Shown: piece by piece, positions 893 to 9,922 of the stretch
How the letters are laid out: the number at the start of each line of letters is the position of its first letter
How positions within the stretch are numbered: position 1 is the stretch's first letter
NCBI GenBank assembly: GCA_944390225.1
Contig: CALXPB010000005.1
Span: 1 to 59,055, forward strand
Reading direction: 5' to 3'
DNA: 59,055 bases
Source of the DNA: an uncultured Alphaproteobacteria bacterium
GTDB taxonomy: Bacteria > Pseudomonadota > Alphaproteobacteria > Rs-D84
Program-made: the position numbers and the translations under genes
The notes under the pieces: model-generated
What the model saw: only the letters and a program-made list of their open reading frames with translations
Told to the model about the DNA's origin: nothing
The model's database searches: none

Positions 893-920
893 AACGACCT
901 GAAAAGGTCGTTTCTTTTTA
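893..920. terminator. Bidirectional terminator between tRNA-Glu and aspS
   Basis: AACGACCT (893-900), loop GAAA, AGGTCGTT (905-912) and then a T-rich run. On the minus strand the same hairpin is followed by TTTT, so it also ends the aspS transcript, whose stop codon touches it. Confidence 0.88.
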
Positions 921-2231
921 TGGCATTATGCGTGTCGGGCCACGGAATAAGAAAGTAGCCTCCCTTAAACTTGGCAATTCCAACAACTGTTTTATAAATC
1001 TGGCACCGCCCATTCCCCAACCACCATGCGGAGGCATACCATATCTAAAACAATCCAGATACCATTGAAGCCCCTCTTGATGAAGTCCTTTTTCTTTTAG
1101 CTGTTCACACAGTTTTTCATAGGACTCTTCACGTTGGGCACAAGTAACCAATTCTACCCCTTTGTATATCAAGTCAGCAGAAATAGATATCGCTTGTCCT
1201 ATTTCGCTTATACCCTTTTTATGGTAAAAAGGTCTGGTTTCCCACAGGAACTCGGTAATGAATACGAATTGCGAACCTGTTGTTTTTTCAACATAATCAC
1301 CTATCGCTTTTTCTTCCGCCGTTGTTAAATCAGGTGATTCACTTACCTGCCCCAATTTTTTCAGAATCTTTTTCGCCTGATACATAGTAATTCTTGGTAT
1401 CGGTTTCTTTAACTGGAAATCATATATACCAAAGTATTTCTTAATTTCTGGTCCAACCGCTTTGCGTACACTTGTTAGCATATATGCAATAGTTCGCTCC
1501 AAAGTTTCCATAACATCTTCAAAGCTTTCTATATACCCCATTTCTACGTCAAGCGATGTAAATTCTGTTGAATGGCGCGTGGTAAAAGAATGGTCTGCCC
1601 GAAATGCCGGTGCAACCTCAAAAACTCGCTCCAAACCAGAAGCTATCGCCATCTGTTTAAATAATTGCGGAGATTGAGCAAGATATGCTTTTTTGCCAAA
1701 ATAATCCAAGCTGAACAGCTCTGCTTTTGATTCTGACGGTGTCGCCATTATCTTTGGCGTTTGGATTTCCAAGAAGCCCTCTTTTAATAAGGCTTCCCTG
1801 TAACCGGTCAAAGCTGCAGACAAAGCCTTCATTACTGTTGCGCCTTTTGCACGACGTAACGTCAGAAAACGCCAATCTTGACATTTTTCAGAAGAAACTT
1901 CTGCTCCCTTTTCTATGACATGTATCGGCAAAGCTTCCGCCAGCGACAAAACCTTTATCACAGACACAGCAATCTCAACCCCCTGTTCAGTACAAGCAGT
2001 TTGTTTTACTATACCTGTTATTTCTAGCACAGATTCCGTCGTTATGGTCTTTGCCAATTCAAAGGCTGAACCCGAACGTTCTATAACGCACTGCACAGTA
2101 CCAGTTATATCACGCAACACGATAAACGTAACCGAACTCTGCACGCGCAACGTTTGCACATGCCCTTTTATTTTTACTTCTTCGCCAATTTTATGTGGAA
2201 TTTCGGCGATATGCGTTCTTATTATAGACAT
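918..2231 (-). CDS. aspS: Aspartyl-tRNA synthetase, archaeal / non-discriminating type
   Basis: A 437-residue class IIb synthetase that charges tRNA-Asp. An N-terminal OB-fold (about residues 10-95) that binds the anticodon is followed by the catalytic core with motif 1 (GFLEIQTPKIM), motif 2 (FRADHSFTTRHSTEF) and motif 3 in the last 35 residues. The length, the lack of the bacterial GAD insertion and the ending TRIMP mark the archaeal type rather than the roughly 590-residue bacterial AspRS. Family knowledge: such enzymes are often non-discriminating and may also charge tRNA-Asn, which would need GatCAB; that cannot be judged here. The start at 2231 is chosen because AAAGGAGG lies just upstream; an in-frame extension to 2291 would run through the leader hairpin. 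Expression is probably controlled by the T-box leader. An AsnRS of the same class is a less likely alternative. Confidence 0.9.
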   Translation of the reverse strand: MSIIRTHIAEIPHKIGEEVKIKGHVQTLRVQSSVTFIVLRDITGTVQCVIERSGSAFELAKTITTESVLEITGIVKQTACTEQGVEIAVSVIKVLSLAEALPIHVIEKGAEVSSEKCQDWRFLTLRRAKGATVMKALSAALTGYREALLKEGFLEIQTPKIMATPSESKAELFSLDYFGKKAYLAQSPQLFKQMAIASGLERVFEVAPAFRADHSFTTRHSTEFTSLDVEMGYIESFEDVMETLERTIAYMLTSVRKAVGPEIKKYFGIYDFQLKKPIPRITMYQAKKILKKLGQVSESPDLTTAEEKAIGDYVEKTTGSQFVFITEFLWETRPFYHKKGISEIGQAISISADLIYKGVELVTCAQREESYEKLCEQLKEKGLHQEGLQWYLDCFRYGMPPHGGWGMGGARFIKQLLELPSLREATFLFRGPTRIMP

Positions 2232-2492
2232 TTTAACCTCCTTTGTGTTGTTTATTTGTTTCAAATAAGAACACAAGGACGTTTTACGCATATCTAAAGA
2301 TAAGCGGACAACGTGGTGCCACCTTGTTTTATGATATCATCACTGATATCACCTTGATAACTCTCGCAGATCGCCGACCTTGAAAGAGTCCTTTGCTGTA
2401 ACGGGCATACCCGGGAAGTTCTAATAAGCCCGACTGACGTCGGCACCGTTCTTCTTCCGCCTCCCCATTGTTAGTGGATTATCGGCTTTATT
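2232..2492 (-). promoter_or_regulatory. T-box riboswitch (translational type) in the aspS leader
   Basis: Read on the minus strand, the leader holds an eight-pair stem III (TGATATCA, loop GTGA, 2332-2351), then ACAAGG (2327-2322), the bulge UGGCACC (2321-2315) and ACGU (2314-2311). These can pair with ACGU-CCUUGU at 2282-2273, which forms the standard T-box antiterminator fold. UGGC fits the GCCA end of tRNA-Asp or tRNA-Asn. The same CCUUGUGUU can instead pair with AACACAAAGG, which overlaps the Shine-Dalgarno AAAGGAGG; the hairpin spans 2240-2278 and has an inner UUAUUUG/CAAAUAA stem. No U-tract follows, so control of translation rather than termination is inferred: uncharged tRNA would free the ribosome site. 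Stem I lies between 2360 and 2480, but its specifier codon could not be assigned with confidence. Confidence 0.82.
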
Positions 2493-2498
2493 ATGGTT

Positions 2499-2526
2499 AT
2501 TATAGATTACACAAATTATTTTTCAA
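2499..2526 (-). promoter_or_regulatory. Promoter of the aspS T-box leader
   Basis: On the minus strand TTGAAA (2526-2521) and TATAAT (2504-2499) are 16 bases apart. The predicted start near 2492 gives a leader of about 260 nt, a usual length for a T-box. Confidence 0.78.
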
Positions 2527-5729: not shown

Positions 5730-6614
5730 ATGGATAAAAAAATTTTATTTGATAATTTTATTTATGACGTCAGAAAGAAAAAGTTTATTCAAACCGACGC
5801 AAATATTTATACGGACGGGTTCATATCTGCTATTAAAAAAGAGTTTCGTTTGAAGCGCGTTCATCTGGAAGAAAACCCGACAGAAAATATAACCAGAATT
5901 TTTGCGAACAAAACACTTATCCTTGAAATTAAAGACGGGCATATAATTAGTCTGTACATGCCAAAGACAAAGAGAATCAAAAATAAATTCTTGTTTTTAA
6001 ACACAGAATTAAAAAAGGCGGTTTTTCAGAGTGCAAAATATTTTGACAATCATTTTCTAGGTTCAAATGAAAAACTCTCTGATTTTCAGGCTCCGAACGG
6101 CGAGTTTTTTGGTGATTGGTTCATGCCAAAGAACACCGAACTTGAAACAATTTCTCTGCCCAAAGCGGTACAATTCGGCAATTTCTTTTTATCTGCTAAT
6201 GAAAAACTTACAAAAGTTATCGTGCCAGAAGTTCAGAAAATCGGTTTCGGTTTTTTAGTAAGAAATAAAAATCTTAAATCTATAAATTTAGATAAACTTA
6301 TTAAACTTGGTGGTTATTTTATGCCCGCAAACGAGGAGTTATCCAAAATAAAATTATTAAGCTGCGAAGAAATTCATAACGGCTTTATGATTAATAATAA
6401 AAAATTAAAAAAAATACATTTAAATAGTCTAATTTATCTTGGAAATAATTTTTTACCGAGCAACAACAAGAATCTTTCTGTCTTTTACGCACCCAAATTA
6501 TCCATTAAATACATCGAAAAACAAATTAATCCCAGAGTAAAAGAATTATACTTGCAAGATATCTACAAAGAAACCAAAAAATTAACAAATCCGAATATAC
6601 AAAAAACAAAATAA
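5730..6614 (+). CDS. Repeat protein of the BspA-like leucine-rich type, paralogue A
   Basis: A 294-residue protein with GGGAT before the ATG. An N-terminal domain of about 90 residues (DNFIYD... IFANKTLILEIKD) is followed by roughly seven repeats of 22-23 residues with the pattern L..I.LP....IG..FL..N, e.g. LETISLPKAVQFGNFFL. This resembles the LRR_5/BspA-like solenoid. There is no signal peptide, so it is cytoplasmic or exported by another route. The gene at 8939 has the same domain order and a related N-terminal domain, so the two are paralogues on either side of a secreted Cys-rich protein. A binding role is likely from the fold; the partner is unknown. Confidence 0.75.
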   Translation: MDKKILFDNFIYDVRKKKFIQTDANIYTDGFISAIKKEFRLKRVHLEENPTENITRIFANKTLILEIKDGHIISLYMPKTKRIKNKFLFLNTELKKAVFQSAKYFDNHFLGSNEKLSDFQAPNGEFFGDWFMPKNTELETISLPKAVQFGNFFLSANEKLTKVIVPEVQKIGFGFLVRNKNLKSINLDKLIKLGGYFMPANEELSKIKLLSCEEIHNGFMINNKKLKKIHLNSLIYLGNNFLPSNNKNLSVFYAPKLSIKYIEKQINPRVKELYLQDIYKETKKLTNPNIQKTK

Positions 6615-6832: not shown

Positions 6833-8827
6833 ATGTCGGTGCAAATGCGGAGAATTTTGGCTTTATTCATATTTATTTTTATGCCGTTTTTTTCTGCAAA
6901 TGCGGTTGTTTGTGATGTCGGGCAATATACCGACGGTCAATATTGCTATACTTGCCCTGCAAATGCATCTTGTGATGACGGTGTAAAGTTCGTGTGTAAT
7001 GACGGTTGGTATAACAGCGGTGGCGTATGCACAAAGTGCAGTGTAGAAAATGCAACATGTACCAGTGCAGAAGATTACAGTTGTTTAAGCGGTTTTTATG
7101 ATAGTGACGGAAAATGTAACGCATGTCCTGCAAATGCAACTTGTGCCGGTGACCATGAATACTTTTATTGCAAAGACGGGTATTATAAACAGATTTATCA
7201 AGATAATACCCCACGATGTCTTTCTTGTTCAGGTCATGTATGTGACGGTGAAAGCCTTATAAGTTGTGGCGATGGGTATTATTTACATCATTCTGGTTAT
7301 TGTTATCCTTGTGGTGCAAATGGTTATTGCCCGGCAGGTTCTACAACACGGAGATGTAAAGAGGGTTATTATTATCATAGCAGCGCATGTAAAGTCTGTC
7401 CAACGGGTTATTATTGTCCCTTAGGGGAGTCTATATATTATAATGTATATAACTATTGTGCATCAGGATATTATCGTACAGGTGGCAGTTGTACTAAGTG
7501 TGATGACGATGTTGTATGTCCTGGGGGTAAGATAGAAGAAATAGTTTGTCCAGACGGTCTGTACAAACACGATGACGGACGTTGTTTAACTTATGCCCAA
7601 GATGATTGTGGAACTGCACCAAAGTGTAATTCGGGTTGTTATGATTCAGGTGGTATATGTACAAAGTGTGTTGAAAATTCCACTTGTAGCAGTGCGGAAG
7701 ATTTTGACTGTATTGCAGGATATTATAAAAACGGAAACAGTTGCACAATTTGTCCCAATAATTCGAATTGCCCCGCTGGCAGTACAGAGATTAAATGTTT
7801 TGACGGATATTATCTGAATGGTAAATCTTGTAGTAGTTGCCCATCTTATGGTTATTATTGTAATAATAACATCCGTTATGAATGCCCCGAGGTGATTCTT
7901 GGAAAAACATTGGATAATCCGCCAAAAGGACATAATTTTATCAAATATAGTTATATATATACATTGCCAGAAACAAACGCGTCAAGTATATCAAACTGTT
8001 ACGTATTATATATTTATGTTTCTACCACAGAAGGTGAGTATGTGATATCCAGAAGCCAGCAATATGATGGTTCAAAATACCCATTGGATTACACAACCGC
8101 GACTAAATATTGGTATTCAGCGAATACTGGATATTACTTGGATGTTGTAAAAATTCTTAACGGAATAGTTTACTACACATACAGTAAATCTTGTACTAAC
8201 GGACCCGAGAACTCGTATTACACAGGTTCTGGTTCAATTGGTGGTAATGATTGTCCTTGGGTATGTAATGACGGGTTTTATCGTGATGGAAATTCTTGTC
8301 TGGTATGTCCGGACGGTATGGAGTGTGTCGGTGGTGGGGTTGTTTGCCCGATGGGAATGTATGCAGAAAAAAATCAATGTATGCCATGTCCGTCTGGATA
8401 TACGGACTCACAAAAATCAGGAGCCCAATCAATAAAAGATTGTCAGATAAAGTGCATAGGTGGAACATATATATCAAAATCAGAATCACAGAAGTGTGAA
8501 AATGTAGGTGAGGGATATTGGATAGGAGAAAACTATACGAATTATGGGGCAACAGGTACAAAGAACGCATGTGAAGCAGGTATGACCACGATAGGATACG
8601 GGGCCGGAGCAGACGAAGCAGACGACTGTGGTCGAATATTGCACATAGGTGAAGAGAAGGTATATTTAAGACAAAGTCCACGGACAGAGCCGACCTTGGT
8701 AGTAAAATATGGTGAAAAGAAATACTATGCACACACGACCACGAAGGAAGTAGGTCGTATAAGACTGGGTATATCTGGCAAGGTATATTCAGTTTACGAT
8801 GACTCTATGGCAGACAGCGCACAATAA
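6833..8827 (+). CDS. Large secreted cysteine-rich repeat protein
   Basis: A 664-residue protein with a signal peptide (MRRILALF... FFSANA, cleaved near residue 24) and no later membrane segment. About a dozen Cys-rich modules follow the pattern C..G.Y..G..C..CP.N..C......C..GYY, like EGF- or TNFR-type repeats; the even spread of Cys suggests disulfides formed outside the cytoplasm. Residues about 345-455 are Tyr/Ser-rich with few Cys. The last 60 residues (from CGRILHIGEEKVYLR to KVYSVYDDS) form a Cys-poor C-terminal domain that may be an anchoring or sorting domain. AGGGGGG lies only 2-3 bases before the ATG at 6833, so the ATG at 6845, which begins right at the signal peptide, may be used. 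Surface adhesion or matrix function is inference. Confidence 0.8.
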   Translation: MSVQMRRILALFIFIFMPFFSANAVVCDVGQYTDGQYCYTCPANASCDDGVKFVCNDGWYNSGGVCTKCSVENATCTSAEDYSCLSGFYDSDGKCNACPANATCAGDHEYFYCKDGYYKQIYQDNTPRCLSCSGHVCDGESLISCGDGYYLHHSGYCYPCGANGYCPAGSTTRRCKEGYYYHSSACKVCPTGYYCPLGESIYYNVYNYCASGYYRTGGSCTKCDDDVVCPGGKIEEIVCPDGLYKHDDGRCLTYAQDDCGTAPKCNSGCYDSGGICTKCVENSTCSSAEDFDCIAGYYKNGNSCTICPNNSNCPAGSTEIKCFDGYYLNGKSCSSCPSYGYYCNNNIRYECPEVILGKTLDNPPKGHNFIKYSYIYTLPETNASSISNCYVLYIYVSTTEGEYVISRSQQYDGSKYPLDYTTATKYWYSANTGYYLDVVKILNGIVYYTYSKSCTNGPENSYYTGSGSIGGNDCPWVCNDGFYRDGNSCLVCPDGMECVGGGVVCPMGMYAEKNQCMPCPSGYTDSQKSGAQSIKDCQIKCIGGTYISKSESQKCENVGEGYWIGENYTNYGATGTKNACEAGMTTIGYGAGADEADDCGRILHIGEEKVYLRQSPRTEPTLVVKYGEKKYYAHTTTKEVGRIRLGISGKVYSVYDDSMADSAQ

Positions 8828-8938: not shown

Positions 8939-9922
8939 ATGAATACAAGTTTAGTTCTGGATAACTTCACTTTTAATCCGGATACAGCCGAAGTCTCGTT
9001 AACTGGCAAAAATAATGCTTATAAAGATGCTTTTGTTGATACGTTAAACGAAGAATTACGCGGTAAAAAAGTTGAGGTAAAAACCGATGAAATTTCTGGT
9101 ATTACTTCAATTTTGGCTAATAACAAAGTTATTGTAGAAGTAAAAGATAATGATATTATTAGCATACATTTAAGAAACACCAAAAAAATTGGAAATAATT
9201 TTTTAATATATAATAATTCCGTTGAAAAAGTAATTTTGGATAAAGTCGAAGAAACAGGAGATGCTTTCCTTTCTAACAATGAGGTCCTGAATGTTTTTGA
9301 AGCACCTAAATTAAAAAAAGTTGAAAGAAGTTTTCTAAAATTTAATCTTTGTCTTGAATCTATATCATTACCCAGCATAGAACTAATTGAAAATGATTTT
9401 ATGTATGCAAATGTTATTCTAAGCGATTTCAGTGCCCCGAAACTGAAAAGTGTTGGTGATAGATTTTTTGAAAACAATAAAGGCATAAAAAAACTGGTAT
9501 TAAACAAAATAACGCATTTCGGTGATAATTGCTTTTATAAAAATGAAATCATGAACACGTTCGAAGCCATAAATCTTTTAAAAATTGGGAATGACTGTTT
9601 TCATTTTAATAAAGAAATTGAGTCTCTGTCATTTAAAAGAGTTAGAAATATTGGCAATAATTTCTTTTATTCTAACCCAAAAATTAATTATATAGAAATA
9701 CCAAACTGTGAAAAAATCGGTAACAGTTTCTGCTGTCAAACGAATGCTCTTCCAGAGATATCGTTGAATAAAGCCGAACAAGTTGGATTCAACTTTTTGA
9801 ATAATGACAAGAATATAAAAACACTTAATGCCCCTAAATGGAAAACCTCGCTTATACGCGGGCAAGCAAACAGAAATTTGATAATGGCGTATCATAACGC
9901 CCAGACTCAAAAATCAAAATAA
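8939..9922 (+). CDS. Repeat protein of the BspA-like leucine-rich type, paralogue B
   Basis: A 327-residue protein with AAAGGAT before the ATG. It opens with the same kind of 90-residue N-terminal domain as the gene at 5730 (shared features: LDNF, a central SILANNK/IFANK block, then VEVKDNDIISI). About nine 22-23-residue repeats follow, e.g. LESISLPSIELIENDFMYAN, alternating LP and AP at the turn. There is no signal peptide. Sequence divergence between the two copies is large, so the duplication is old or they arrived separately. It ends in a strong terminator shared with the oleate hydratase gene. Confidence 0.78.
   Translation: MNTSLVLDNFTFNPDTAEVSLTGKNNAYKDAFVDTLNEELRGKKVEVKTDEISGITSILANNKVIVEVKDNDIISIHLRNTKKIGNNFLIYNNSVEKVILDKVEETGDAFLSNNEVLNVFEAPKLKKVERSFLKFNLCLESISLPSIELIENDFMYANVILSDFSAPKLKSVGDRFFENNKGIKKLVLNKITHFGDNCFYKNEIMNTFEAINLLKIGNDCFHFNKEIESLSFKRVRNIGNNFFYSNPKINYIEIPNCEKIGNSFCCQTNALPEISLNKAEQVGFNFLNNDKNIKTLNAPKWKTSLIRGQANRNLIMAYHNAQTQKSK

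Follow-up and report, generated by a model that had tools for sequence, protein, structure and literature searches.

A T-box of Clostridium acetobutylicum, a member of the Firmicutes, reportedly stands ahead of an aspS2-gat operon. By the title of its description (Saad 2012, cited in PMC4206432), this T-box controls tRNA-dependent amidation for asparaginyl-tRNA(Asn). The element studied here differs from it in belonging to the aspS2 of an alphaproteobacterium and in its putative translational platform. Two other genera described as carrying T-boxes, Geobacter and Pelobacter, are now placed in a different phylum. Among 125 proteobacterial genomes surveyed in 2008 (Wels 2008), two had a T-box, only ahead of the leuA genes of Geobacter and Pelobacter, and these were described as typical and concern another gene and another amino acid (PMC2494555). 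In architecture, the element resembles the translational ileS T-boxes of the Actinobacteria (Nocardia, Mycobacterium; TBDB class II), with which it shares a short Stem I with a K-turn and the specifier, a Stem II (here with an S-turn-like loop), Stem III, a region that is here only IIA/B-like, and an antisequestrator that competes with a sequestrator of the Shine-Dalgarno (SD) sequence (PMC7583486, PMC10651847). It differs from them in its AAC specifier, in the gene (aspS2), in the phylum, and in an extra hairpin between IIA/B and Stem III; a second group of leaders in the source genus, those of aspS1, differs from the ileS T-boxes further in having lost Stem II, IIA/B and Stem III. The TBDB translational model has been applied to Actinobacteria and to class I hits that were truncated, and we found no report of a T-box in Alphaproteobacteria in the open-access literature.

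Here, we analysed a stretch of 59,055 nucleotides (the window; contig CALXPB010000005.1) from an uncultured alphaproteobacterium that is known from assemblies only. A sequence-only reading of this DNA had placed a translational T-box ahead of an archaeal-type aspS, within 2232-2526; the T-box is real and occupies the minus-strand leader at 2510-2232, and all the strings quoted for it are present at their positions. The Rfam match, the covariation, the conservation in congeners and the lack of a terminator described below support this reading, and we consider it very probable from the sequence that aspS2 is under the control of a T-box riboswitch of the translational type, with a Stem I loop that would present AAC to the anticodon of tRNA-Asn.

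Architecture and recognition of the aspS2 leader

From 2526 to 2231 on the minus strand, the modules follow each other in the order promoter match, short Stem I, Stem II, IIA/B-like element, extra hairpin, Stem III, antisequestrator, sequestrator, SD and ATG. The promoter that had been proposed corresponds to a match to TTGAAA-16-TATAAT (2499..2526), just 5' of Stem I; this is a consensus match only, and most of the congeneric aspS2 leaders show these boxes at a similar spacing. Stem I (2486-2459), Stem II (2458-2414) and the IIA/B-like element (2413-2395) are additional to the modules listed in the sequence-only reading. Stem I, assigned by sequence and by the Rfam alignment, is short, with a GCC/GGC base, a K-turn-like GAU..GGA, a 3-bp CCA/UGG helix and a 7-nt loop, CUAACAA, in which positions 3-5 form the specifier AAC, an Asn codon (2470..2472). 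It is nearly invariant among congeners, with a more canonical GAUGA form in L034/L040. Stem II is built of GGAAG/CUUCC, an internal S-turn-like loop (AGAA..UUAUUAGAA) and a covarying distal helix, and the module was also found in other families. In the IIA/B-like element (CGGG-UAUG-CCCG-UUACAGC), the IIA hairpin with its conserved tail was found, and the pairing of a IIA/B pseudoknot was inconsistent by eye. Between IIA/B and Stem III lies the additional hairpin GACUCUUU..GAGAGUU (2358..2391). The hairpin that had been called stem III is indeed Stem III (2352-2331); 8 of its 9 pairs are changed on both sides among congeners, and AAAACAAGG after it provides the purine flank of a Stem III.

The antisequestrator (2273..2327) consists of helix A1, ACAAGG/CCUUGU, and helix A2, ACGU/ACGU, with an apical hairpin; its strands are ACAAGG at 2327-2322, ACGU at 2314-2311 and ACGU-CCUUGU at 2282-2273. 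The T-box bulge UGGCACC (2321-2315) is shared by every aspS2 leader of the genus in the alignment. The competing hairpin that had been described over the ribosome site is formed by CCUUGUGUU (2278-2270) with AACACAAAGG (2249-2240); this sequestrator (2240..2278) covers the SD sequence AAAGGAGG (2237..2244, assigned by sequence), and its upper helix has variants in congeners and sister genera. The ATG at 2231 starts aspS2 (918..2231, minus strand), which encodes a 437-aa archaeal-type aspartate--tRNA(Asn) ligase (NCBIfam NF003483). The product reached the cut-off of this model (451.4 bits; cut-off 353) and did not reach that of a second model, TIGR00458 (349.4 bits; cut-off 368.4). By its family assignment, the enzyme would make Asp-tRNA(Asn), with a presumably non-discriminating activity. 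Just downstream of aspS2 lies a tRNA-Glu gene (811-886 of the window). The contig begins inside a tRNA-Asp gene (1-70 of the window) and contig C4 also ends at tRNA-Asp; the assembly probably broke at this repeated gene. Elsewhere in the window are a cysteine-rich repeat protein (6833-8827) and two repeat proteins alike in make-up (5730-6614 and 8939-9922), which are unrelated to the T-box finding.

The search with the Rfam T-box model that the sequence-only reading had proposed gave a full-length match that nevertheless lies below the gathering score. As searched in 421 bases, RF00230 matched 2491-2272 end to end (model positions 1-219) with 38.3 bits and an E value of 4e-7 (2.1e-7 for the same match in a whole-genome search). 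Since this score is far under the gathering cut-off of 93 bits, a standard Rfam scan at that threshold reports no T-box in the aspS2 leader and routine annotation misses it. The model also matched 5 of 14 control genomes; these five are known or plausible T-box bearers, and only 2 of them were over the cut-off. When 20 aspS2-bearing loci were scanned at the gathering threshold, no T-box was reported, even at some (L208, L210, L211, L218) where it is plain by eye; the threshold is thus blind here. The leader itself has a predicted fold of -81.9 kcal/mol (z -3.9 relative to dinucleotide shuffles, with 0 of 200 shuffles as low). The low Rfam score would also fit a decayed relic of a T-box, or some unrelated structured leader with no more than a likeness to one. 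We regard this as highly improbable, given the covariation and the invariant T-box bulge across 15 aspS2 and 104 aspS1 leaders, and a specifier that varies between two codons only, both of whose tRNAs are expected substrates of such an enzyme.

Alternative folds and the candidate ligand

The same leader stands ahead of aspS2 in every congener whose leader could be read, and 15 of these congeneric leaders, including that of the window, were aligned. RNAalifold recovered Stem II, IIA, the extra hairpin, Stem III and the sequestrator. In the named structure, 98.9% of cells held standard pairs compared to 95.1% in shuffled alignments, and 11 pairs were changed on both sides compared to 3.9; none of 500 shuffles reached either value, and pairing fell below 47% when partners were slid by one base. 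Stem III is the source of most of this signal, and the antisequestrator says little by covariation because it is nearly invariant. Both mutually exclusive folds are kept among the congeners, with the antisequestrator paired in 150 of 150 cells and the sequestrator in 123 of 135. The sequestrator fold is predicted to be 5.8 kcal/mol more stable than the antisequestrator fold (-48.7 and -42.9 kcal/mol), and the predicted accessibility of the SD, 0.22 without constraint and 0.17 under a forced sequestrator, reaches 0.68 once the antisequestrator is forced. These modelled values are those expected of a switch that would be off unless tRNA holds the leader open. The ON state is not fully captured by the energy model, since the predicted accessibility of the AUG drops from 0.85 to 0.38 when the antisequestrator is forced.

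A terminator hairpin with a run of U occurs in the T-boxes ahead of tyrS in other families of the same order (L003, L005, L007) and in the T-box that a Zambryskibacterium carries ahead of aspS2 (L218). Attenuation or Rho-dependent control could by the same token act on the aspS2 leader. We found no terminator-like site within this leader, in agreement with the absence of a U-tract noted from the sequence, and its competing hairpin lies over the SD, with GUUAAAAUG after it in place of a U run, an arrangement kept in congeners; control of transcription rather than translation is therefore quite unlikely.

Under the favoured translational reading, which draws on established T-box biology for tRNA binding, the sensing of aminoacylation and the direction of regulation, the Stem I loop would present AAC to the anticodon of tRNA-Asn. 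When this tRNA is uncharged, its free GCCA end would pair with UGGC of the bulge and stabilise the antisequestrator ACAAGG/CCUUGU, so that CCUUGUGUU could not pair with AACACAAAGG, the ribosome site would be open and the synthetase would be made. With charged Asn-tRNA, presumably produced by AspRS together with the GatCAB amidotransferase, the bulge pairing would fail, the more stable sequestrator would form and translation would be low.

The ligand had been given as tRNA-Asp, and here the sequence-only reading needs revision: the Stem I loop reads AAC, so tRNA-Asn is the more likely ligand of the aspS2 leader. The fit between UGGC and the GCCA tail of tRNA-Asp holds, but it holds equally for tRNA-Asn, as both end in GCCA. 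The bulge matches G73 of both tRNAs in the source genome, in which most other tRNAs have A73 and end in ACCA; the tyrS T-boxes of the same order have a UGGU bulge, matching A73. Conservation of the specifier loop among relatives was also seen, with the AAC loop nearly invariant in the congeneric aspS2 leaders. None of 115 genomes of the genus has an AsnRS over the family cut-off, and the source genome encodes GatB; Asn-tRNA is therefore presumably made by aspartylation followed by amidation, a route established for bacteria without AsnRS (PMC4206432). In a few genomes of the genus (G105, G100, G102, G043, G052, G055, G089), proteins of ~270-356 aa match the asnS model in its C-terminal part only and are possibly asparagine synthetase A-like.

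The specifier also correlates with the AspRS content of the genome. Among alphaproteobacterial genomes, sister genera included, the aspS2 T-box has AAC in 18 of 18 with both aspS1 and aspS2, and GAC in 4 of 4 with aspS2 alone (Fisher P 1.4e-4, uncorrected for kinship). The tree allows one or two changes, and the split is perhaps one or two evolutionary events; some of the four GAC genomes are incomplete assemblies, in which the lack of aspS1 is not fully assured. Binding of tRNA-Asp, instead of or besides tRNA-Asn, would suit the UGGC bulge just as well, and either ligand could serve an AspRS gene, as 88 of the 104 aspS1 T-boxes of the genus present GAC and the other 16 present AAC. In addition, a two-codon T-box binding two tRNAs has been published for C. 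acetobutylicum, going by the title of the report (Saad 2013, cited in PMC4206432). Against this, the aspS2 loop is AAC in every genome with both synthetases, and pairing of AAC with a GUC anticodon would put an A-C mismatch into the first position of the codon, and we consider tRNA-Asp an unlikely ligand.

Reduced leaders ahead of aspS1

The other AspRS gene of the source genome is a bacterial-type aspS1, and it also has a T-box. This second T-box is of a minimal form with the specifier GAC (G000:C1:2493-2593; L002, L197), and it is conserved across the genus: 102 genomes yielded 104 aspS1 leaders, every one of them with the T-box core. For 66 non-redundant leaders, RNAalifold predicted a lower helix, the K-turn hairpin and the antisequestrator; in the named structure, 12 pairs had a change in both partners, and the share of paired cells was 90.5% compared to 75.6% in shuffled alignments. 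The GA/GA columns of the K-turn are invariant or nearly so, and specifier bases 2 and 3 are invariant, with base 1 only G or A. The sole tolerated change thus appears to swap codons whose tRNAs an AspRS without an AsnRS partner must serve. That the codon is set by the presence of aspS2 was considered and rejected, as 11 of the leaders with AAC come from genomes without aspS2 and 5 from genomes with it.

These leaders are reduced to Stem I and the antisequestrator, without Stem II, IIA/B or Stem III. Their linker of 19-25 nt is unstructured, with a conserved AAGUNAUAAA that resembles the purine flanks of Stem III. According to a review, a short Stem I makes the Stem II domain essential, binding was weakened about 1200-fold by removal of the pseudoknot, and a T-box cannot do without Stem III (PMC7583486). 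Either the aspS1 leaders are minimal T-boxes, or something has replaced the missing modules. We lean towards the view that they are working minimal T-boxes of ~100 nt, composed of a K-turn Stem I with a specifier loop the size of an anticodon loop, a linker and an antisequestrator, with no long Stem I that binds the tRNA elbow, and in most cases with a GGUGCC relay platform.

In 97 of the 104 leaders, the core is followed by an element E of the GGUGCC type, the complement of GGCACC in the bulge. Tentatively, E may act as a relay by deciding whether a further segment, F, pairs with E or with the SD. The E-F duplex was more stable for matched than for permuted partners (-14.5 and -12.2 kcal/mol), as was that of F with its own SD (-7.42 compared to -6.57 kcal/mol permuted over leaders, 0 of 5000), a difference that relatedness inflates; at the level of 13 SD types, the P value for the F-SD duplex was 0.053. 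The duplex test is suggestive only. The thermodynamic test of the relay did not bring out a switch: SD accessibility averaged 0.44 without constraint and 0.42 when the core was forced, and forcing the core raised it in only 23 of 104 leaders.

Distribution, origin and meaning of the T-boxes

At an E value of 1e-3, RF00230 matched 73 of 192 relatives, with none above the gathering cut-off and all matches inside the order. In a class-wide sample, 9 of 385 genomes matched, including families outside the order, two of which have long-form T-boxes ahead of aspS1 (L200-L203). In a third family outside the order, a T-box over the gathering score (L199:1501-1741; 110 bits) with a UGGU bulge precedes a DAHP synthase gene, which is followed by a prephenate dehydrogenase-like reading frame. 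We also searched with a model of the short-form aspS1 leader (R1) and one of Stem I-II-IIA (R2). R1 matched the source genus only in the 385-genome class sample, and R2 picked up long-form leaders in additional genera of the family, ahead of aspS1 (L296) and of aspS2 (L297, L298). Because stricter filters were used, the counts from these large searches are lower bounds. The terminator-type tyrS T-boxes with UGGU precede archaeal-type tyrosyl-tRNA synthetases in two other families of the order. Further afield, T-boxes stand ahead of aspS2 in an assembly of Candidatus Zambryskibacteria (L218:2800-2990; AAC, with a terminator) and in an unclassified bacterium (L214:2823-2953; GAC).

Of the two origins first suggested, that gene and switch were acquired together or that T-boxes are more widespread than thought, the second is supported. 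A recent joint acquisition is unsupported because aspS2 is monophyletic in the order, each of the 104 aspS1 leaders examined in the genus carries a T-box too, and the type of the aspS2 leader varies by lineage. In the tree, the aspS2 genes of the order and its close alphaproteobacterial relatives form one clade with full support. The gene is present in ~19 of 115 genomes of the genus and in other families, a distribution that an old gene with many losses fits better than a recent transfer does. Transfer of aspS2 into the ancestor is possible; in our search for a donor, there was no close outsider, and the nearest was ~45% identical. In a termite-gut relative (L208), a short leader of the aspS1 type, GGGUGCC included, stands ahead of aspS2, and in an assembly labelled Rickettsiales (L209:2540-2960), aspS1 and aspS2 lie head to head, each with its own T-box; leaders and genes have thus been recombined.

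Relatives have been recorded from the rumen and the termite gut. The finding places T-boxes on the AspRS genes of a gut-dwelling genus whose genomes are close to 1 Mb, in a class for which the open-access literature searched reports none; the asparagine of these bacteria is presumably formed on tRNA. The natural exchange of GAC and AAC ahead of the same gene offers material on how the tRNA-dependent supply of asparagine is sensed, and the loss of all accessory modules in about 100 species offers material on the minimal needs of a T-box.
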